Source: Armatimonadota bacterium (lineage in GTDB: Bacteria > Armatimonadota > Armatimonadia > Armatimonadales > Capsulimonadaceae). From it: a DNA stretch of 37,317 bases. Shown piece after piece: positions 1 to 13,209 of the stretch (the stretch's first letter is position 1; each line of letters starts with the position of its first letter). The notes below the pieces were generated by a model that saw only the letters and a program-made list of their open reading frames with translations, had not been told where the DNA came from and made no database searches. The stretch covers positions 1 through 37,317 of the forward strand of contig JANXMY010000213.1 of the NCBI GenBank assembly GCA_025354405.1, written 5' to 3'. The translations under genes were made by a program, and so were the position numbers.

Positions 1-20
1 ATTCGGGGAGATCACGAGCC

Positions 21-299
21 ATGGCGTCTTATGAGGCAACAATCAGTGGGTACACCGTTACCGTCAATTACCAGCAGGGTGGAACCAACCAGATCGGGGT
101 AAAGAAGCCCGCGAAAGTGAAGGCCTGGGCGATCTGCCCGGTCAGCGAAAAGCGCATCGACGGTGCATCGAATTCCATGGGCGAGGCGACACGCATGGTG
201 GAGAAAGCCGTGGCAGAATCTATCGTGACGGCACTGGAAGCAAAAGCGGCTGAGGCCGCCGCTCCAGCGTCCTTAACACCGGTCGCTGTCGAGGCTTAG
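21..299 (+). CDS. Small hypothetical protein (92 aa)
   Basis: I do not recognise this family. The product is a soluble 92-residue protein with no membrane segment or signal peptide. The first 45 residues look like beta strands rich in Thr, Val and Lys, and the last 40 form an Ala/Glu-rich, probably helical tail. A GGGGAG Shine-Dalgarno-like sequence at 5-10 lies about ten bases before the ATG. The SDR gene starts six bases after its stop codon, so the two are probably co-transcribed. Codon use resembles the neighbours. It is supported as a real gene by its ribosome binding site and tight spacing, not by homology. Confidence 0.6.
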   Translation: MASYEATISGYTVTVNYQQGGTNQIGVKKPAKVKAWAICPVSEKRIDGASNSMGEATRMVEKAVAESIVTALEAKAAEAAAPASLTPVAVEA

Positions 300-305
300 G
301 CGGAC

Positions 306-1091
306 ATGGCCGAAATTTCTACTCCGCTCACGCTGGATCTGTCCGGAAAAGTTTGCGTCGTAACCGGTGCGACCGGGCAGCTGGGCCGCGTCATGGTCCG
401 CATACTCGCCCGGTGCGGGGCGGATGTCGCGATCCAGTATCTGCAAAATGAAGCCATGGCCCGGCAGCTGTCGGAAGAGCTGGCCGTGCTGGGCCGCCGC
501 GGCCTGCCGGTACAGGCGGATATCACGGATGTGGTCAGCGTCACCGCCCTGCGCGACACGGTCATGGCGGAGATGGGGACTGCCTCTATCATCGTCAATA
601 ATGCGGTCATTCAGTACGACTGGACCAGCGTTCTGCAGCAAAACCCTGCTGACTACGAATCCCAGTTTCGCTCCTGCGTCCTGCACAACGTCCTCATGGC
701 CCAGGCCTTCGTCCCGGGCATGATTGCCGCCGGCAAAGGGGGCCGCGTAATCGGCATCAACACCGAGTGCGCCATGCAGAACTTCGAGTCCCAGTCGGCC
801 TACGTCGCCGGCAAGCGCGGCATGGACGGCGTCCTGCGCATTCTCGCCAAAGAGGTTGGCGGCCACGGGATCACGGTCAACCAGGTCGCGCCGGGCTGGA
901 CTATCAGCGACCAAGACCGCGAAGCGGACACCCCCGACATCTCTGACTACGCCTCTAAAGTCCCACTTCGGCGGCGCGGCACGGATATCGAGATCGCCAA
1001 TGTCGTTGCATTTCTCGCCTCCGATCTGTCCTCCTATATCACCGGGGCCTACATCCCCGTCTGCGGCGGCAATGTCATGCCGGGGATTTGA
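306..1091 (+). CDS. SDR family NAD(P)-dependent oxidoreductase
   Basis: A 261-residue short-chain dehydrogenase/reductase with a Rossmann fold, oxidising or reducing an unknown alcohol/carbonyl with NAD(P). Residues 20-27 read TGATGQLG, spaced like the TGxxGxxG of extended SDRs rather than the TGxxxGxG of classical ones, although the length is classical. VNNAV (97-101) is the NNAG-type motif. The catalytic pair is Y166 and K170 (YVAGK). The residue 13 before the Tyr, normally Ser, is Thr153. The C-terminal proline/glycine-rich end (GAYIPVCGG) matches the usual substrate-loop and GG ending. AGGCGG precedes the ATG. It follows the small gene at 21-299 closely. The family is certain; the substrate is unknown. 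Confidence 0.9.
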   Translation: MAEISTPLTLDLSGKVCVVTGATGQLGRVMVRILARCGADVAIQYLQNEAMARQLSEELAVLGRRGLPVQADITDVVSVTALRDTVMAEMGTASIIVNNAVIQYDWTSVLQQNPADYESQFRSCVLHNVLMAQAFVPGMIAAGKGGRVIGINTECAMQNFESQSAYVAGKRGMDGVLRILAKEVGGHGITVNQVAPGWTISDQDREADTPDISDYASKVPLRRRGTDIEIANVVAFLASDLSSYITGAYIPVCGGNVMPGI

Positions 1092-1161
1092 ATTTCCGGC
1101 CACAGGCGAAGAACCGGGTTGACAAGGTTATTTTCGACCGGGTAAAATAACGACCAGAAAT

Positions 1162-1235
1162 GGCGGAATAGCTCAGTTGGTTAGAGCGACGCACTCATAA
1201 CGCGTAGGTCGAGGGTTCAAGTCCCCCTTCCGCTA
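1162..1235 (+). tRNA. tRNA with anticodon CAU (elongator Met, or Ile2)
   Basis: A full cloverleaf can be drawn. The acceptor stem is 1162-1168 with 1228-1234, seven pairs with a terminal G-U. The D arm is GCTC/GAGC, the anticodon loop CTCATAA (anticodon CAT at 1196-1198), the variable loop AGGTC and the T loop TTCAAGT. The discriminator is A1235 and CCA is not encoded. The anticodon stem lacks the GGG/CCC pairs of initiator tRNA, so this is elongator tRNA-Met or the lysidine-modified tRNA-Ile2. Two stems each contain an A-C mismatch (A1193-C1201 and A1212-C1226), which is unusual. Its last three bases form the stop codon of the gene on the opposite strand. Confidence 0.88.
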
Positions 1236-1808
1236 CTTTTCTTCTTCCTTTGCCTCAGCTTCCACTTCGCCGTCCTCTTCCTCCTCGTCTTCTTCCTCTT
1301 CCTCCGACCCGCCGTCGTAGGCCCGGTAGAAGAGGGCGGCGCCGTCCAGCCACGACTCCAGCCAGCTTTCCAGCGACGCCGACTCGATCCAGCAGGCCTG
1401 CTTGATCAGTGTGGCCCGGGCGAAATGCATCGCCGCCGGAACGCGCGCGGCGACATCCGCCTTCGGCATATTCGGATCCCGCCGAATGATGGGTGCTTCT
1501 GGCTGCGTGCAGTCCACTTCCGACGTGATCCCGCCGCCCCAGTCGCAGAGGGGGATAAGTCCCGCGACAGGCTTCCCCATTTCTGCCAGCTTATTAAGCC
1601 CCGCCCCCGGCCCCCAGCCGCCGTCGCCCACCTTCCGGTACAGCTGCTTCAGCGACTCCGGCAGTGGAGTTCCCAGCCGTTTCTCCGCCGCCGCAATTTG
1701 CTCTTCTGTTGCCGGAGGCGCGGCGACACGACCGCCTTCGTCCGTCGCCGTGCTGCTGTTTTGTGCACGTTCGGTGAGCCGCGCAATGAATTCTGCCTGG
1801 TCAATCAT
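1233..1808 (-). CDS. SMI1/KNR4 (SUKH superfamily) domain protein with acidic tail
   Basis: A 191-residue protein. Residues about 33-75 carry the SMI1/KNR4 signature: an ATEEQIAAAEKRLG helix, then LPESLKQLYRKVGDGGW. SUKH proteins often act as immunity proteins against contact-dependent toxins, or as scaffold-like regulators. No toxin gene is adjacent, so the role here is open. The last 25 residues are almost all Glu and Asp (coded by a GAG/GAA run), which could mimic nucleic acid or bind basic partners; that is inference. The TAG stop codon (1235-1233) lies inside the 3' end of the convergent tRNA gene. No strong ribosome binding site precedes the ATG. Confidence 0.72.
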   Translation of the reverse strand: MIDQAEFIARLTERAQNSSTATDEGGRVAAPPATEEQIAAAEKRLGTPLPESLKQLYRKVGDGGWGPGAGLNKLAEMGKPVAGLIPLCDWGGGITSEVDCTQPEAPIIRRDPNMPKADVAARVPAAMHFARATLIKQACWIESASLESWLESWLDGAALFYRAYDGGSEEEEEDEEEEDGEVEAEAKEEEK

Positions 1809-1943
1809 CTCTAAAAAATCGTCCTATCTTTTTGCGTCGGTGGCGGTGCCTCATGATATTTATGGCTTTCGCCCGCATCATCTCGCCACTCCGTCCAACC
1901 TCCATTTTACCGCACCCACCCCAATTTTGCTTCAGGGGCTGAC

Positions 1944-1987
1944 CGAATGGTTAAAAACCATTCGCTAGGCGAGGCACCCTCCGGGTG
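1944..1987 (+). repeat. Double-hairpin intergenic repeat, copy 1 (complete)
   Basis: Two adjacent perfect hairpins. Hairpin one is CGAATGGTT (1944-1952), loop AAA, AACCATTCG (1956-1964). Hairpin two is CACCC (1975-1979), loop TCC, GGGTG (1983-1987). The spacer reads CTAGGCGAGG. The same architecture, with hairpin starts 31 bases apart, recurs at 17437-17480. The base changes in hairpin one are compensatory, so the structure is conserved rather than the bases alone. It lies between the starts of the SMI1 gene and the 3' end of the terminase gene. Confidence 0.85.
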
Positions 1988-2020
1988 ATGGAGAAGAATC
2001 CTAATCCTACACCCGGAGCC

Positions 2021-2041
2021 CGAGTGGTTGAAAACCACTCG
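2021..2041 (+). repeat. Hairpin repeat, copy 2 (first hairpin only)
   Basis: A perfect nine-base-pair hairpin: CGAGTGGTT (2021-2029), loop GAA, AACCACTCG (2033-2041). It matches the first hairpin of the double-hairpin element seen nearby and at 17437. The CACCC/GGGTG second hairpin is missing downstream, though ACCCGG occurs just upstream. It lies 22 bases beyond the stop codon of the terminase gene and could trap its mRNA 3' end. Confidence 0.8.
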
Positions 2042-2063
2042 CTGATCTTCCCTCTGTCGTACC

Positions 2064-3539
2064 TCACTCCCGCACCCCTAATCCCATCTGGGATCCCAGC
2101 AAGATACGCTTTCCGGGCGGCGGGGCGGGGATCGGCGAGGCCAGCCAGGCGAGGGCCAGGGCGACGACGCAGTCGTCGTGGCCGCCGGAGCGTGCCCCCA
2201 TTTTGAGGCGGCCCGCCATGCCGGGGGCGTACTCGAAGCCGCGCAGCTCCGCCAGCAGCGTCCGGTGGGGAGGGAATTGCAGGGCGCGGGCCGACAGGCC
2301 GACCGTCAGCGTATCGATCAGCCGGACCTTACTCTCCGCGCCGAACTGGAACCGCTCGACCGTGAGCGGCCGGTCCGACGGCAATCTCAGGGGAACCATC
2401 GCCTTCTCCAGCATCTCCGCCACCGGGTCGCCAATGCTGCTGCCGTCGGCCAGAATTCGCACGGGGGCATAGCGCACCAGTATTTCCGCGGCTGCGGCCG
2501 CCTGACGATCCCAGCCGGTTCCCTGCCAGCGGCTCAGATGCACCAGGCGGGCAGGGTGGGCGGCGGCATCCAGAATGGCGACGACGCTGAAGTCCATCTT
2601 GCGGCCCCAATCGATTCCGGCGACGTAGATGCCCCCGACCACTGGCTCCGAATGAATCTCCCCGTCCCTCAGGGTGACCCCGGCCAGCGCTGCGATCGCG
2701 GCGGTGATGTCCTCCTCCCGAAAGACCGCGCCGTAATCGTCGACGAACTGTGCTTCGTACTCCTGGGCATACAGCGACTCGCCCATGTCCTCCCGCTGGG
2801 CCTCCAGAAACGCCAGGTCCAGATGGCTTTTATTGTCTGAGGTCGGACATTGGAACGATGCATAGGTGACAGCCGCGTTCGCCTCCCTCGGAACTGAGGA
2901 TGGGGGGGCCATACCTCGGGCGTAGAGCCGGTAATAGGCCGAGCGGCGGCCAAACGGCGATGATGCCAGCAGGTACTCGCCGCCGACATCGGTCAGCATC
3001 GGCAAAAGCACATCGGTGAGGACGCTATCGGGGACACGCGCGGCTTCATCGACGACGATCCGGTGCGCCCACAGCCCGCGCAGATTACGCCCGTCCCGTC
3101 CCGCGGTCCGAAACGCCATCTCGGCATCCGCCTTAAGCCCGCTAACGACCAGCTTCAGGTAGGGCGAGCTTTTGATGGTCAATTTCAACCCGGGGAGCTC
3201 TTCCTGGGACCCATCCAGCGCCACGCTCAGCTTTTGCTGCACCGCCTCCCCCAGCAGCCGTGCCTGTCCATCGGTAGGAGCGACAATCAGCTGCTTCGAT
3301 CCGGACTCCGTCAGGGCCAGGGTCGCAATATCGATGCTGAGGCACTCCGTTTTGCCCCAGCGGCGTCCGCAGGCCGCCACTCGTACCTGGGCCGTGCAGC
3401 AAAAGAGCTTCCGCTGCTCTGCGTGAGGCGTCCAGCCCCAGAGACGTTTTGCTAGTGCCAGCCGCTCCTTTGCGCTTTTCGTCCGTTTCCGAATCGTCCG
3501 CCACATGATAACCCTGTGCTTTCCGCCCTTCCAGTGCAT
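2064..3539 (-). CDS. Phage terminase large subunit-like protein (orphan)
   Basis: A 491-residue two-domain protein matching the large terminase, the motor and nuclease that cuts and packages phage DNA. The ATPase domain has Walker A GRRWGKT (58-64), Walker B IVVDEA (D164, E165) and the coupling motif LLASSPFG (190-197). The RNase H-like nuclease domain has AGIDWG (D310), D316, ILADGSS (D365) and GHDDCVVALA (D455, D456), so all acidic metal ligands appear present. Both active sites look intact and the reading frame is full length. No small terminase, portal, capsid or tail gene is in the window. It may be a prophage remnant, a domesticated packaging motor, or a gene-transfer-agent part. Met13 is an alternative start. 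Confidence 0.85.
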   Translation of the reverse strand: MHWKGGKHRVIMWRTIRKRTKSAKERLALAKRLWGWTPHAEQRKLFCCTAQVRVAACGRRWGKTECLSIDIATLALTESGSKQLIVAPTDGQARLLGEAVQQKLSVALDGSQEELPGLKLTIKSSPYLKLVVSGLKADAEMAFRTAGRDGRNLRGLWAHRIVVDEAARVPDSVLTDVLLPMLTDVGGEYLLASSPFGRRSAYYRLYARGMAPPSSVPREANAAVTYASFQCPTSDNKSHLDLAFLEAQREDMGESLYAQEYEAQFVDDYGAVFREEDITAAIAALAGVTLRDGEIHSEPVVGGIYVAGIDWGRKMDFSVVAILDAAAHPARLVHLSRWQGTGWDRQAAAAAEILVRYAPVRILADGSSIGDPVAEMLEKAMVPLRLPSDRPLTVERFQFGAESKVRLIDTLTVGLSARALQFPPHRTLLAELRGFEYAPGMAGRLKMGARSGGHDDCVVALALAWLASPIPAPPPGKRILLGSQMGLGVRE

Positions 3540-3731
3540 TATGTTACCTGTATATTAGAACATACGTTCGCGATATTTTGGTCTTGGGCCTGTCTCTGAT
3601 CCGGTCCATCACTCCGCTGATGAGTTAATTTCTTATGATTAATACTCACCAGTACATCTAAATCGCGACTGTTGACAAATACACAGATGGCCAGTCACCC
3701 GTCCCCGACCCGCGCGTTCCGGCTCGCAAAC

Positions 3732-3761
3732 TTGACAGTTTTTAGCAGACGGTGGTATACT
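3732..3761 (+). promoter_or_regulatory. Strong promoter for rpsU
   Basis: TTGACA at 3732-3737 is a perfect -35 box. TATACT at 3756-3761 is a near-perfect -10 box with an 18-base spacer, and TGG before it makes an extended -10. Transcription would start near 3768, giving a leader of about 60 bases to the TTG start of rpsU. It is the best consensus promoter in the window, fitting a ribosomal protein gene. Confidence 0.85.
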
Positions 3762-3829
3762 GAAAAGTTCTTGTTTGGCGCAGGCTAACCGAAAACAGTT
3801 TTTAATTCTAATGCAGGGGAGTGATAAGG

Positions 3830-4027
3830 TTGACGCAGATTCAAGTGCGACCGAACGAATCTCTAGACTCCGCGCTGAAGCGCTTCAAAAAGCAGCTTCA
3901 GCTCACCGGCGTTCTTAAAGAAGCGCGCGAGCATGAGCATTACGAAAAGCCCAGCGACAAAAAGCGCAAGGCCGAAGCCGCCGCGAAACGCAAGCGTATT
4001 CGCAACGAAGAAAAAGAAAAAGGCTAG
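3830..4027 (+). CDS. rpsU: 30S ribosomal protein bS21
   Basis: A 65-residue protein of the small ribosomal subunit that contacts the 3' end of 16S rRNA near the anti-Shine-Dalgarno. The family core is clear: [17 protein letters not shown], then the very basic C terminus rich in KKRK and [12 protein letters not shown] at 3821 would extend the frame by three codons, but AGGGGA runs directly into it, leaving no spacer. The TTG at 3830 lies eight bases after GGGGAG and gives the expected N terminus, so a TTG start is chosen. A strong promoter precedes it. A short hairpin (GCTAGT/ACTAGC, 4023-4041) overlaps the stop codon. Confidence 0.95.
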
Positions 4028-4117
4028 TCTCCGTGACTAGCTCTGCCGTTTGGCGTGCGCTCGTTCCGTTTTGGGAAATCCATTTTGGAGCCGAGCGTAC
4101 GCTTTTTATTCTGCCCT

Positions 4118-6454
4118 ATGGCGAAGCCTTTTCCATCACTACCTTCCAGTCCCATGAACCCCTTTGGGCGACTCCCGCGCCGCCGTCGGCTGCGCAAAGA
4201 GGATCGCTGGGCGGAAGTTGCCCCGCCGCGCCTGCTGGCCCAGCTGCGTCTGTGGCTGGCCGGACGAAACTGGGAGCGTGTCGGCCTGCTGGCAGGCACG
4301 GTGCTGGTGCTGTCTGCTCTGCTTTCCCTGCACCTGCTGCCGGACAAAGTCGCGCTTCGGCCCGGTGAGATCAGCGGCACGGACATCCGGGCATCGCGCA
4401 CCGTACGCTACCTGGACGAGGATGCTACCCGGATGCTCCGCGCCGCTGCCGCCGCGCGCGTTGAGCCAGTTTATACATCTGTGCACGCCGCTTCCGAAGC
4501 CGACGAGACCATCACGGAGGCCTATCTGCGGCTGCGGCGCGATCAGCTCGCCGGCCTGCACGACGGAGCCCGGGCTTCGCAGGATTTGCGGCAGGAGGTG
4601 GGGGTCTCACTTTCGCCCCTCGTTCTCCTGCCGCTGCTGAATGCCGGGTCTGGTGCCTATCATCTGGATCAGGCCGAGCGGCTGACGCACCAGTTTGTTC
4701 ACGATGCGATGGACCGGGAGATTCGCGATGATCACCCTGGCGACCAAGCTGAGGCGCGTGCCGCCGTCACCCAGCGTATCACTTCCTCGCTTCTTCCCCG
4801 GACATACGTACCTGCTGCGGCTGCACTGGCCCAGAGCGTCATTCAGCCGAACCGCATCCTGGACCAGAAGCGCACGGCTGGGGCAATGGCGCTGGCGCAG
4901 CGTTTGGTCGCTCCCGTTTATGGACAGATATTTGCCGGGGATACGGCTGTCCGCCGCGGCCAGATCGTCACTCCCGGTGCAATTCTGCGTCTGCAGGCAT
5001 TAGGCTTGCAGAACCCGCGCCTGGACCCCAGCACGATCGCCTGTGTTGCTGGCCTGGTCGCATTTATGACCGGAATCGTCTGCTTCTGGCTGGCCCGCTA
5101 CAATCCGGAAATCTACCGCTCCACCCGCACCTTGCTGCTGCTGAGCTTATTGGTTGCCATCGGGATTCTCGGCCTGCGTCTGGGCAGTGCGATGATGGGG
5201 GTACGCCTCTCTCCTTCTCAGTTCGGCTATGTTGGGATGGTTTGGGTGGGAGCAACGGGCATGCTGATCGCCGCCCTGATCAAGCCGCGCGTGGCGATGC
5301 TGGTCACGGCGGTGCTGGCGGCGCAGTCGGGCATTCTGGTCGGTGACGAACTGCGCTTTTCCCTGCTGACCCTGCTCTCCACCTGGGTCGCGATTTTTGC
5401 TGTCTCCGATATCCGCAGCCGCAGTGATGTGCTGCGGGCTGGCGGCCTGCTCTGCGTCTCGAACATCGTGCTGAGCCTGCTTATCGGCCAGTTTCAGGGA
5501 GACACGCGGGCGGATATGGCCCAGTCAGTGGTGTGGGCATTCTTCTCGGGGGCGCTCTCGGTCGCACTTTTCTCCGTCAGCGCGGCCTTGTTTGAGCGCC
5601 TGTTTGGCATCACGACCCATCTCGGCCTGCTGGAGCTGTCCGATCCGAACCGTCCCCTCCTGCAAAAGTTCAGCCAGCTTGCGCCGGGGACCTATACACA
5701 CTCCATTATGGTTGGGAATCTGGCGGTGGCGGCGGCGGAAGCAATTGGGGCGGATTCGCTCCTTTGCCGCGTCGGGGCACTATACCATGACCTCGGGAAG
5801 ATGCAGCGGGCACAGTTTTTTGTCGAAAACCAGGCGGGGGGAGACAATGCCCATGAGCGGCTGAATCCCTCCCTCTCCGCGCTGGTCGTGACCGCCCATG
5901 TCAAAGACGGCCTGGAGATCGCTGATCGCGAGAAGCTCCCGCCGATCATTCGGGCGTTTATCGGGGAGCACCACGGCACAAGTTTGATCAAATACTTCTA
6001 TCATCAGCAGTGTGCCGGAGACGATTCTGATGCCGCCCCTGGTCTGGAAGACCAGTTCCGCTATGGGGGCCCGAAGCCGCAGTCCCGGGAAACGGCAATT
6101 CTGATGCTGGCGGACAGCACGGAAGCCGCATCCCGCAGCCTGGAAAAACCGACCCTGGGGCGCATCGAAGATCTCGTGCAGAAGATTGTCACCGCACAGC
6201 TTGCCGATGGCCAGCTCGACGATTGTGACCTGACTCAGCGCGACCTGCGCGGCATCCAGAGTGCGTTCACCCGACTGCTTTCGGGGATGCTGCACAGCCG
6301 GGTCGAATATCCGGAGATGCTTAAAGACGTCTCCACGAAAAAGCCGATAGAGAACCCTCATGCCGATCTTGATCCAGCGCCGAACGGACTGCTTTCCCTC
6401 ATTGAAGGTCCTGGAGACACTCACGGAGCCGCTGACAACTCTCTTGCGGCTTGA
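4118..6454 (+). CDS. PgpH/YqfF-type membrane HD phosphodiesterase (c-di-AMP hydrolase family)
   Basis: A 778-residue membrane protein of the 7TM-HD family. Characterised members (PgpH) hydrolyse cyclic di-AMP. It has a basic N terminus, one membrane helix (VGLLAGTVLVLSALLSL), a large extracytoplasmic domain, a bundle of membrane helices around residues 300-500, then a cytoplasmic HD domain: H528 in THSIMVGN, H557-D558 in YHDLGKM, and later GEHHGT. These metal-binding His/Asp residues look intact. The frame is open from a GTG at 4055. ATG 4118 was chosen because TATTCT five bases before it could be a -10 of a leaderless mRNA; ATG 4154 is also possible. The 3' end overlaps ybeY. This gene order (yqfF-ybeY-dgk) is common in bacteria. 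Confidence 0.88.
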   Translation: MAKPFPSLPSSPMNPFGRLPRRRRLRKEDRWAEVAPPRLLAQLRLWLAGRNWERVGLLAGTVLVLSALLSLHLLPDKVALRPGEISGTDIRASRTVRYLDEDATRMLRAAAAARVEPVYTSVHAASEADETITEAYLRLRRDQLAGLHDGARASQDLRQEVGVSLSPLVLLPLLNAGSGAYHLDQAERLTHQFVHDAMDREIRDDHPGDQAEARAAVTQRITSSLLPRTYVPAAAALAQSVIQPNRILDQKRTAGAMALAQRLVAPVYGQIFAGDTAVRRGQIVTPGAILRLQALGLQNPRLDPSTIACVAGLVAFMTGIVCFWLARYNPEIYRSTRTLLLLSLLVAIGILGLRLGSAMMGVRLSPSQFGYVGMVWVGATGMLIAALIKPRVAMLVTAVLAAQSGILVGDELRFSLLTLLSTWVAIFAVSDIRSRSDVLRAGGLLCVSNIVLSLLIGQFQGDTRADMAQSVVWAFFSGALSVALFSVSAALFERLFGITTHLGLLELSDPNRPLLQKFSQLAPGTYTHSIMVGNLAVAAAEAIGADSLLCRVGALYHDLGKMQRAQFFVENQAGGDNAHERLNPSLSALVVTAHVKDGLEIADREKLPPIIRAFIGEHHGTSLIKYFYHQQCAGDDSDAAPGLEDQFRYGGPKPQSRETAILMLADSTEAASRSLEKPTLGRIEDLVQKIVTAQLADGQLDDCDLTQRDLRGIQSAFTRLLSGMLHSRVEYPEMLKDVSTKKPIENPHADLDPAPNGLLSLIEGPGDTHGAADNSLAA

Positions 6455-11237: not shown

Positions 11238-11945
11238 TCACAAAATCTTTGGCCGTGGTGTGACATTCGCACGCAACGCTTTTACCAGCAGATGCACGGT
11301 TGTCGAGGGATTATTTTGATGCGGATTCTGATCCGCCCCGTACTCGGCCAGGAGACTTTCCGCGCGTCGGATCGCTTCTTCCTGCTTACTCTGCAGTTCA
11401 TCGTATATTGAAGGGCTGTTCTTCTCGTATTTGTGTCCCAGGCGAACACTGAGCTTCGGAGAATACTGCTCGCGGCTTAATGCACTATGATGGTCTTCGA
11501 AGTGCAATAAATACCATAGCTCGAACGCCTCATTCGTATAAGCCACCTGGAAGCCAGCGGCTTTCGCTTTGGATATCGCGCGGTTGAAGTGATCATCTGG
11601 AAATGAGTCGTGATCAAAGACGCACCATACCTGGTCATAAGCAGACTCCCCCTTCCGGCTCGCAACTTCTTCTATCTCTGCCTTGAGGCGGATCGCTTCT
11701 TCCACTAATGTAAGTGTGTTATAGCCCGTGCCTTTGATTGTGGGAGTAAAGCCAGGCACACGGAACCCTTCGAAGTAGAGCAGCTCTGTTTTCTCCCCTT
11801 CGCAGACAATCAAAAACCGTTCAGTTTGTTCTATGGCATTTTTCTCACGCGAGGCCGATGTCTTTGCTCTCTGCGGCTGAAACTGCGGACGTCTCACATA
11901 TGCTGGCTGCTTTCGCGCTCCACGGTCAGGCATACACTTGCTCAC
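11238..11945 (-). CDS. rloB: RloB-like Toprim-type protein
   Basis: A 235-residue protein of the RloB family, first noted as genes inserted in type I restriction loci and usually paired with the RloA ATPase. Features are Toprim-like: VCEGEKTE (48-55) with E49 as the likely metal ligand, VFDHDSF with D111 and D113, and NEAFELWYLLHF (138-149). The first 35 residues are basic and look disordered. It starts 28 bases after the rloA stop. The frame opens at a GTG (11945); ATG 11933 (MPDRG) is an alternative. DNA here is visibly more AT-rich than its surroundings, suggesting transfer. By analogy with AAA ATPase-Toprim defence pairs such as PARIS, it may be a nuclease effector; this is inference. Confidence 0.85.
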   Translation of the reverse strand: MSKCMPDRGARKQPAYVRRPQFQPQRAKTSASREKNAIEQTERFLIVCEGEKTELLYFEGFRVPGFTPTIKGTGYNTLTLVEEAIRLKAEIEEVASRKGESAYDQVWCVFDHDSFPDDHFNRAISKAKAAGFQVAYTNEAFELWYLLHFEDHHSALSREQYSPKLSVRLGHKYEKNSPSIYDELQSKQEEAIRRAESLLAEYGADQNPHQNNPSTTVHLLVKALRANVTPRPKIL

Positions 11946-11973
11946 GATCTGCCGTGATTTCGGGCGTCTCTTG

Positions 11974-13209
11974 CTATGGCGCGATTGGGAGTCGGGTCAG
12001 GTCACCCAGGAACGGAATCGCTCCGTAACGTCCCTCCAGATAATTCTTTTCGTATGCCGCGTCATTGCGGACTTTATACTCCACGAGTGAAGTTAAGTGT
12101 GTGGATCCTTCTCGATCTTTTTCGGTGAACCATATTTGATCCCGTCGGAATAGGCGCTTGTCCAGCAGGTTTGCATCATGGGTCGAGAAAATAAGCTGAG
12201 CGCCCTTTGGGTTGGTTAGAGGAGATTGAAATATCTCAATAATACGCCGCGTGATTAAGGGGTGAAGCCGGGCATCAAGTTCGTCAATAAAGATAGGCTG
12301 CCCGTATTCCAGTATGCCGAGCAGTGGTCCTGCAAGAGCAATCATTTTTTGTGTACCCTGCGATTCTTGGTTGTTTGCATCAAACGATTGCTCGGCAACA
12401 ATGTTTCCCTCCTTGTCTTTGATCTTGCGGGTAACAATTATGCTTCTTTGAGGAGAGCTTTGAGTATCCTCTTTTTCTTCTGCGGCCTTTAAAGCAAGAT
12501 CATCAAATCCTAAATCAAAAGCCTTCAGAAAACCAACAATATTTTTCCGTTTGTTTTCTGTCTGGAGGCGGTCAATCGTGAAATCACGGAATAGTTCATC
12601 TGTTATTCCAGTCGCGACAATAAAGCCCCTCAGCCAATCAAGAATTTGCTGCGCGATATGTACATTTAACAGAGCGGCGATCGAAAGGAATAGGGCCCCT
12701 TTGCGCGTTCTTGACTCCAGACCTTTTCCTTCCTTAAAGCCTGACTTCACGGTAATTTCTTGCTCTTCACGCAGAAACAAAGCGACTTCTTTTGTTTTTG
12801 GCACATGAAACAGCCACTCGGAGACAACGTGGCTCGTGTCTACCTCAAATCCATAGCGAAACTGCTGACCATTCAGCAGAAACACAATCTCGAAAAATGA
12901 GGGCTGATATTGTGAATGCGTATCTAGTAGAAATGGTTCAACGCCGAACGCCGCCGGAGTGGAGTTCACTTGAGACACATCCAGCACCATCTGTCGCATA
13001 AACCGCAGGGCTAGCCCGAAGTTACTCTTGCCACTGGCATTCGCACCGTAGAGTGCCGCCGTCTTGAGGAGACTTAAAGTCTTCTTAATAGGAGTAACAT
13101 TGTCCCGGTCCAGTACCGGGTCTTCGGAGGTCAGGTTGGCCGCAATCATGCTGAAAGTCGTCTTGTCACGGAAGGACTTGAAGTTGCCCACAGTAAATTC
13201 AATTAGCAT
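11974..13209 (-). CDS. rloA: RloA-like AAA family ATPase (AAA15/ABC-ATPase type)
   Basis: A 411-residue ATPase of the SMC/ABC-like AAA15 class found with RloB. Walker A is GANASGKS (55-62). An ABC-signature-like SQGTQK lies at 283-288. Walker B is IFIDE (306-310) with D309 and E310, followed by LDARLHP. The switch histidine is H344 in STHDANLLD. All nucleotide-binding motifs look intact. The N terminus MLIEFTVGNFKSFRD is typical for the group. Such ATPases sense phage infection in related two-gene systems and control an effector. The probable promoter (TGGTACAAT, 13290-13282) is followed by a palindrome that could be an operator. Base composition differs from neighbours, pointing to horizontal acquisition. 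Confidence 0.88.
   Translation of the reverse strand: MLIEFTVGNFKSFRDKTTFSMIAANLTSEDPVLDRDNVTPIKKTLSLLKTAALYGANASGKSNFGLALRFMRQMVLDVSQVNSTPAAFGVEPFLLDTHSQYQPSFFEIVFLLNGQQFRYGFEVDTSHVVSEWLFHVPKTKEVALFLREEQEITVKSGFKEGKGLESRTRKGALFLSIAALLNVHIAQQILDWLRGFIVATGITDELFRDFTIDRLQTENKRKNIVGFLKAFDLGFDDLALKAAEEKEDTQSSPQRSIIVTRKIKDKEGNIVAEQSFDANNQESQGTQKMIALAGPLLGILEYGQPIFIDELDARLHPLITRRIIEIFQSPLTNPKGAQLIFSTHDANLLDKRLFRRDQIWFTEKDREGSTHLTSLVEYKVRNDAAYEKNYLEGRYGAIPFLGDLTRLPIAP

Follow-up and report, generated by a model that had tools for sequence, protein, structure and literature searches.

A lone terminase gene as candidate packaging motor of a dispersed, gene-transfer-agent-like capsid system in Armatimonadota

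An apparently intact gene for the large subunit of a phage terminase (TerL), with no phage structural gene beside it, raises the question of what keeps it in a bacterial chromosome. It lies on the minus strand, at 2064..3539, of a 37,317-nucleotide stretch of Armatimonadota DNA (the window; JANXMY010000213.1), which is the whole of contig C226 in a 3.6-Mb assembly of 233 contigs (GCA_025354405.1) and holds the one TerL match of that assembly. A sequence-only reading of the window had called the gene an intact orphan, either a very recent prophage remnant or a gene used by the host, for example as part of a dispersed gene transfer agent (GTA). It proposed to decide the matter by measuring dN/dS among homologues, by looking elsewhere in the genome for a portal and a capsid, and by a phylogeny against phage and GTA terminases; frameshifts in relatives or relaxed selection would speak for simple decay. 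GTAs are defined in PMC9662315 by phage-derived proteins that form caudovirion-like particles with mostly random host cargo, genomes endogenised often at several loci, no full self-packaging, vertical co-diversification with their hosts, and delivery of DNA to cells.

The TerL reading frame encodes 491 amino acids without internal stops. Its probable start is at 3506 or 3539, and translation may begin at 3506 instead of 3539; residues are numbered here from the ATG at 3506. The product matches the Pfam families Terminase_6N (3.5e-10, residues 58-279) and Terminase_6C (1.1e-6, residues 308-465), both above the curated cut-offs, and the PHROG profile for terminase large subunits (2.5e-36). Alignment and motif searches mark, all on the minus strand, stretches that we take to be the Walker A (ACGRRWGKTE, 3345..3374), Walker B (HRIVVDEAA, 3039..3065) and coupling (LASSPFG, 2949..2969) motifs of the ATPase, and three nuclease motifs (GIDWGRKMD with Asp299, 2592..2618; LADGSSIGDP with Asp354 and Asp360, 2424..2453; GGHDD with Asp444 and Asp445, 2166..2186). 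K52, D153, E154, D299, D354, D360, D444 and D445 are invariant in a 16-row TerL alignment. The protein has the predicted make-up of a Terminase_6-type enzyme, with an N-terminal ATPase, a C-terminal RNase H-like nuclease domain and the catalytic residues of both, so that the ATPase and nuclease are indeed intact, as first supposed. The nearest named contig is that of an Armatimonadetes MAG (JANXNV010000105.1, 89% identity in TerL).

When 28 ORFs of the window were scanned with PHROG (27 of the 33 called genes plus one alternative ORF; the remaining six called ORFs are short), no head, packaging or tail gene turned up besides TerL, and none for tail, integration or replication was linked to it, as would be the case in an intact prophage. 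Positions 1-6000 were searched for direct repeats that might be a trace of attachment sites (seed 12, minimum length 25), and there were none. The neighbours are a SUKH (SMI1/KNR4) protein, tRNA-Met, ribosomal protein S21 and an HD-domain 7TM protein, with an RloB/AAA pair farther off. The SUKH gene (1233..1808, minus strand, assigned by Pfam) is of host type and lies downstream of TerL, a position it also holds beside the ortholog in a sister species (locus L031); we do not count it among the packaging genes. The RloB and AAA_21 ATPase genes (11238-13209) lie in a stretch of lower G+C (0.46-0.49) and are possibly a defence pair that was gained recently.

The gene is thus an orphan within the window, but the term does not hold for the genome: the search for portal and capsid genes found both on other contigs (C233, C116 and C141), together with protease, c8 and neck-type genes. 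A portal profile search gave two portals (C233 and C116). There are two capsid genes of the gpT type, one on C141 and a partial one on C233 that is cut by the contig end, and no match to the HK97 capsid family (PF05065) was found in this genome. One protease and one c8 gene lie on C141, while c21 and c22 are present twice each. The assembly (G000) has two head sets and one TerL, and a second TerL may be absent from it. We infer by elimination that the window TerL serves the head set that is not the genus's second one, described below. In the sister species of the same genus (G001), the TerL ortholog is 90% identical; its short 4.5-kb contig has no phage neighbours. DUF1559 genes with an N-methylation motif (pilin-like; L031 423-1226 and 2996-3844) stand on both sides of that ortholog and are absent beside the window TerL.

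Among 291 Armatimonadota genomes, strong matches were found to the capsid in 118, TerL in 125, the portal in 121, and to all three in 98, which fall in 13 families. Genomes with weak matches only, 6 of 124 for the capsid, 13 of 138 for TerL and 20 of 141 for the portal, are left out of these counts. The three genes co-occur pairwise with Fisher odds ratios of 45-56 (p 4e-39 to 4e-42; 291 genomes, uncorrected for kinship), and they are mostly single-copy in the 98 carriers (capsid 92, TerL 92, portal 95). Within the window's order (19 genomes), TerL and portal are both confined to one and the same group of six; the capsid occurs in these six plus G005, and its match is weak in G013. TerL was found without a capsid gene in 21 genomes, and the capsid without TerL in 14. 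Stops were flagged inside the matched stretch of TerL in five genomes (G242, G137, G099, G194, G115), of the capsid in three (G228, G239, G111) and of the portal in 22. All six portal stops that were checked are the gene's own end. The capsid genes of G239 and G228 have genuine internal stops, which slightly lowers our confidence in a dispersed capsid system.

The set comprises TerL, portal (phrog_113), protease (phrog_976), c8 (phrog_1731), a capsid of the Mu gpT type (phrog_371), c21 and c22. Loci were read in 47 carriers, and 36 of them have all seven genes. Some of the gaps in the other 11 are loci that were not fetched; genes in fetched loci were called by a simple codon-usage script, with some genes missed or split. 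The caudoviricete derivation that the GTA definition calls for is seen by profile in TerL, portal, protease, capsid and c8, by fold in the stopper (c22), and by a modest fold match in the adaptor (c21). The predicted structure of c22 (pLDDT 89) matches the phage stoppers of T1 (Z 9.9, 87 residues, 3.1 A) and the lambda neck (Z 9.5, 81 residues, 2.2 A), as well as a chain of the RcGTA particle (Z 7.7), and a single member matches Pfam Phage_attach (0.0017, below cut-off); the modelled protein appears stopper-like. For c21 (pLDDT 70) the matches to connectors are modest, with Bxb1 at Z 6.4 (72 residues, 2.3 A), the neck of SaPI1 at Z 6.1 and that of P74-26 at Z 5.5, and this model suggests an adaptor-like protein. 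Foldseek gave nothing under 0.001 for either, and the structure-match lists also hold unrelated proteins, namely the PBCV-1 capsid for c21 (Z 5.5) and 3C proteases for c22 (up to Z 7.0). In several families a small HTH-type protein, k9, is encoded just before TerL, on its upstream side; by position it is small-terminase-like, while its matches to HTH families stay under the Pfam cut-offs. The clusters also encode small proteins in which inspection by eye points to a hydrophobic stretch (k10, k13, k14, k25), and in family f18 an Amidase_3 protein; a role of these in lysis is a guess. In some otherwise conserved clusters, further genes of like orientation separate the capsid from c21 (L217 12510-13550, L218 3915-6932, L061 970-3300). 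These genes differ greatly in kind and length (DUF2961; an unknown protein of 1005 aa; CBM96 plus an S9 peptidase), and the position is a possible slot for capsid decoration or cargo.

TerL, portal and capsid lie within 15 kb of each other in 12 of the 98 carriers; only TerL and portal are close in 46, only portal and capsid in 13, and the remaining 27 have other arrangements. Contig breaks account for part of the apparent dispersal. TerL and capsid are on one contig yet more than 15 kb apart in 22 of the 98, for instance by 1.03 Mb, the maximum, in G162 and by 0.86 Mb in G189. The latter is a single-contig genome, in which the three genes are 0.18-1.04 Mb apart, the portal being 1.04 Mb from TerL. 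These same-contig cases show a gene set endogenised at several loci, as is often so in GTAs. The arrangement tracks the host family. Contiguous clusters are found in f36 (2/2), f37 (1/1), f38 (2/2), f18 (6/12) and one f14 genome (G145); TerL and portal are close in f14 (36/41) and f29 (6/7); in f7 and in the majority of f1 and f5 genomes TerL stands apart from the other two. In f30 all three are mostly apart or on separate contigs, with the exception of G197, where TerL is 2.7 kb from the capsid. Because the loci are up to a megabase apart, a particle would hold at most part of the gene set. This means that, provided the heads are of ordinary size, full self-packaging would be precluded at 1.03 Mb, and the cargo would be expected to be mostly host DNA, as in GTAs.

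Between the two species of the window's genus, dS is 0.69 for TerL, 0.58 for the capsid of set 2, 0.70 for the portal of set 2, and 0.66 for RpoB (in genomes with two head sets, portal, protease and c8 were taken from set 2). The near-equality of TerL and RpoB indicates that the window TerL has aged with its host. The dN/dS analysis found purifying selection, with values of 0.092 for TerL, 0.091 for the capsid, 0.174 for the set 2 portal and 0.018 for RpoB. TerL gave 0.11-0.15 in five f5 pairs; for more distant f14 pairs, where dS is near saturation, TerL gave 0.25-0.34 and c22 0.48-0.67. Frameshifts or relaxed selection were found neither for the window TerL nor for its ortholog.

Trees of TerL (30 rows), capsid (29) and RpoB (29), drawn from 30 of the 98 carriers, return every host family with at least two rows as a single clade, although support for f14 is only 61 in the TerL tree. 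The families join in the TerL tree much as in the RpoB tree: f30, f29 and f14 against f5, then f1, then f36, f7, f37, f38 and f18, with a departure in the order of f36, f7 and f37. The capsid tree, unlike that of RpoB, groups f5 with f30. Mantel correlations of TerL are 0.877 with portal, 0.854 with capsid and 0.758 with RpoB (G004 left out), and 0 of 2000 permutations were as high. Across the three head genes, distances correlate at 0.85-0.90 mutually and at 0.74-0.84 with RpoB, again without G004; the values against RpoB are only 0.24-0.38 when the broken RpoB fragment of G004 is kept. That fragment was excluded from the trees, and the G239 capsid (internal stop) from both correlations and trees. 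The host co-diversification that characterizes GTAs is thus seen in the 30 sampled carriers, with the genus's second head set and f5 in the capsid tree as exceptions. Judging from these sequences, the head module is old, mainly vertically inherited and under purifying selection. A very recent prophage remnant, the first of the two origins proposed for the gene, is rejected on its dS, its dN/dS and a tree that closely tracks that of the hosts.

A broader phylogeny bears on the phage side of the question. While the window TerL used alone against IMG/VR gave five pattern matches and no relative, the 16-row alignment found 378 relatives. In a tree of 87 rows (50 of 60 eligible IMG/VR terminases; six redundant rows dropped), the Armatimonadota sequences form one clade (SH-aLRT 95), the sister group of nine viral rows. 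The proposed comparison was thus made against phage terminases, proven GTA terminases being absent from the rows. Two IMG/VR rows, L384 and L386, are nested inside the Armatimonadota clade, L384 being a TerL-portal fragment close to f18. Other IMG/VR contigs resemble pieces of the bacterial head module: L075 and L077 have portal, protease, c8 and capsid (and c21 in L075), as L384 has TerL and portal.

The favoured explanation, to which we give a probability of roughly two in three, is that the window TerL is the packaging motor of a dispersed, head-only, GTA-like domesticated capsid system. Of the two origins first suggested, it is thus use by the host, as in a dispersed GTA, that the partner genes elsewhere in the genome, their co-occurrence, dispersal and vertical inheritance, and purifying selection favour. 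The system would be inherited mainly vertically in Armatimonadota with its genes scattered over the chromosome, and the partners of TerL would be a small-terminase-like protein (in some families), the portal, the protease, c8 as a second virion protein, the gpT-type capsid, and the adaptor-like c21 and stopper-like c22. Docked on the portal of the capsid, TerL would drive DNA into the head and cut it at headful, after which adaptor and stopper would seal the filled head. The small membrane-type proteins, plus the amidase in f18, could lyse the cells. Assembled particles, host-DNA cargo, release and transfer to other cells would all follow from this reading of the genes.

Three tail markers were searched in 21 carriers: tape-measure PF10145 matched in four (three above cut-off), phrog_26 in three (one at 0.005) and phrog_290 in five (one at 7e-6, one at 0.05). 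Thirteen of the 21 gave no hit at all, including the single-contig genomes G162, G163 and G223. Hits in G136, G189, G105 and G153 are near other portal or capsid hits and probably belong to prophages; the remaining hits are in G050, G001, G127 and G095. No conserved tail was found by these markers in the 21 carriers, a result compatible with a divergent or dispersed tail. Since no tail was found, delivery is left unexplained, and this is counted against the GTA-like reading. A further reading, which we put forward tentatively and consider less likely than not, is a very old viriform spread throughout the phylum, a head-only GTA as opposed to one more tailed kind: ancestors of the Armatimonadota would have kept the head and neck of a Mu-like phage and scattered the genes, and the cells would now export host DNA in sealed, tailless particles, taken up by way of borrowed prophage tails or the recipient's DNA-uptake machinery.

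The same result is what one would expect if the host used tailless heads, DNA-filled or empty, for DNA storage, defence or kin killing, with no delivery at all, and defence-type genes do adjoin some of the copies. These neighbours vary from locus to locus, however. Phage adaptor and stopper proteins seal heads and join tails, and the conservation of adaptor-like and stopper-like proteins suggests finished particles, which makes such a use unlikely.

The main mobile rival is a capsid-forming satellite like the cf-PICIs, mobile and making its own heads but with tails from a helper phage, of which the window TerL would be a fragment. Capsid-forming PICIs have head and packaging genes without tail genes, and are compact elements that move between hosts. 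They are treated in PMC12846349 and PMC13345588. The Armatimonadota set likewise has its own head, packaging and neck genes with no recognised tail genes (by gene order; few neighbours are annotated), and the second head set of the window's genus also speaks for a satellite. Sister species G001 has two TerL genes. Contigs C84, C165 and C221 of this species (loci L053, L032, L033) have 141-base ends in common, so that the second TerL falls into a single locus that also includes c8, protease, capsid, c21, c22 and portal, interspersed with Dnd-type genes (PAPS-reductase and AAA hits). In the window's assembly the second set is on C233 (L051). AbiEii lies within or beside the set, a phage-type primase/helicase-like gene is near its portal, and that portal (set 1) has a dS of 0.21 between the two species, against 0.66 for RpoB. 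The second set looks mobile, either satellite-like or defence-carrying, and these divergences suggest that it probably moved more recently than the window TerL. The widespread set, in contrast, is scattered, mostly single-copy and tracks the host tree, the window TerL has the dS of RpoB, and no integrase was seen among the few annotated neighbours. A satellite would account for the lack of a tail, and perhaps for the second head set, whose status as a compact mobile element is uncertain; it does not fit the scattered, vertically inherited main set, for which it is a distinctly improbable origin.

In both species the c21 gene of the second head set is doubled, encoding 306 aa with two domain copies (L051 771-1691). 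A repeat of about 50 bp occurs near several genes of this set in G001 and G000. It was considered as a shared control element and rejected, as it is also present inside a TerL reading frame and is absent from window positions 1-6000; we take it for an ordinary interspersed repeat.

The weakest alternative, an old Mu-like prophage broken up by rearrangement with TerL surviving by chance, is in keeping with the phage origin of the genes (the G050 capsid is 42.8% identical to those of Mu-like Pseudomonas phages such as JBD25), the fragmented loci and the genuine stops in a few relatives. It is very improbable given that dN/dS is close to 0.1 within the window's genus, that the active sites are intact, and that seven genes are retained in 36 of 47 carriers read and three together in 98 genomes of 13 families.

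The GTA-like system is best read as undescribed, of a new lineage, with extreme dispersal and a tail that has not been recognised. Among the matches listed in the open-access PMC literature, with subscription papers and preprints mostly outside this scope, none describes a GTA for Armatimonadota. PMC9662315 evaluates three groups of GTAs, two alphaproteobacterial and one of spirochetes. As described there, RcGTA, BaGTA and BhGTA/VSH-1 are like the Armatimonadota set in having tailed-phage head genes, several chromosomal loci, co-diversification with hosts and purifying selection. The Armatimonadota set differs in its Mu gpT-type capsid and phrog_113 portal lineage, in belonging to another phylum, in the separation of TerL, portal and capsid from one another, and in having no recognised tail. 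The nearest precedent is FpGTA of Faecalibacterium (PMC12946183). Its head genes (TerS, TerL, portal, scaffold, capsid) form a 10.5-kb operon, those for baseplate, fibre and lysis form another, and its particles, which were purified, have no identifiable tail. Common to both are a head locus apart from other loci and lysis genes elsewhere. In many Armatimonadota genomes, however, even the head genes are separated from one another, and the search gave no tail operon.

Among phages, the Mu-like ones and IMG/VR contig L076 have the gpT-type capsid in common with the host set, the G050 protein being 64% identical to that of L076 and 42.8% to JBD25 gpT. The L076 contig also carries a linked hit to a tail protein (phrog_290) and a gene of 973 aa, a possible tape measure with no PHROG hit of its own; in the host loci neither was recognised. 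The Thermus phages P23-45, P74-26 and Riverbug have the same type of TerL, with 28.5-33% identity over 88-90% of the window protein, and the P74-26 neck chain is the one among the c21 fold matches; these are complete phages, and distant from the window TerL.

Few GTAs have been proven, and the Armatimonadota module would add a deep, independent domestication in a little-studied phylum, in about a third of the genomes sampled. It would show how far a viriform can break up while still under selection, and raises the question of whether a capsid system with no tail of its own can transfer DNA between cells. A terminase, portal or capsid gene that stands alone on a contig is usually labelled a prophage remnant, yet it may belong to such a dispersed machine. 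Table 2 of PMC8597652 lists, for a Fimbriimonadales MAG, a 7.1-kb incomplete viral region ('Portal; head; capsid') that is possibly this head module gone unrecognised.

Several other terminase and capsid clusters were set aside. A divergent relative of the head module occurs at L464 (G039), L465 (G025) and L466 (G005), with capsids at 40-43%, c8 at 49-56% and different flanking genes. Family f9 includes G025 and G039, the latter a genome in a single contig, while G005 belongs to the same family as the window. In all three, c8 is beside the capsid, and TerL gave no match at 1e-20. The lone TerL of G029 groups among phages in the 87-row tree, and that of G045 (f16) is within an HK97-type cluster. 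The TerL genes of genera g36 and g87, in eight genomes (G146, G148, G177, G178, G180-G183) that belong to the 21 in which TerL was found without the capsid, score 270-290 bits, against 460 for the member in G120, and are taken for part of another phage-derived cluster. Gene calling and profile marked this TerL in six loci (L471-L476) but not in L468 (G178) or L470 (G177); in five of the six (L471, L472, L474, L475, L476) a recurring gene of 345-407 aa adjoins it. The terminase cluster of these f14 genera is syntenic between G180 and G181, and could be a second vertically kept cluster of phage derivation.
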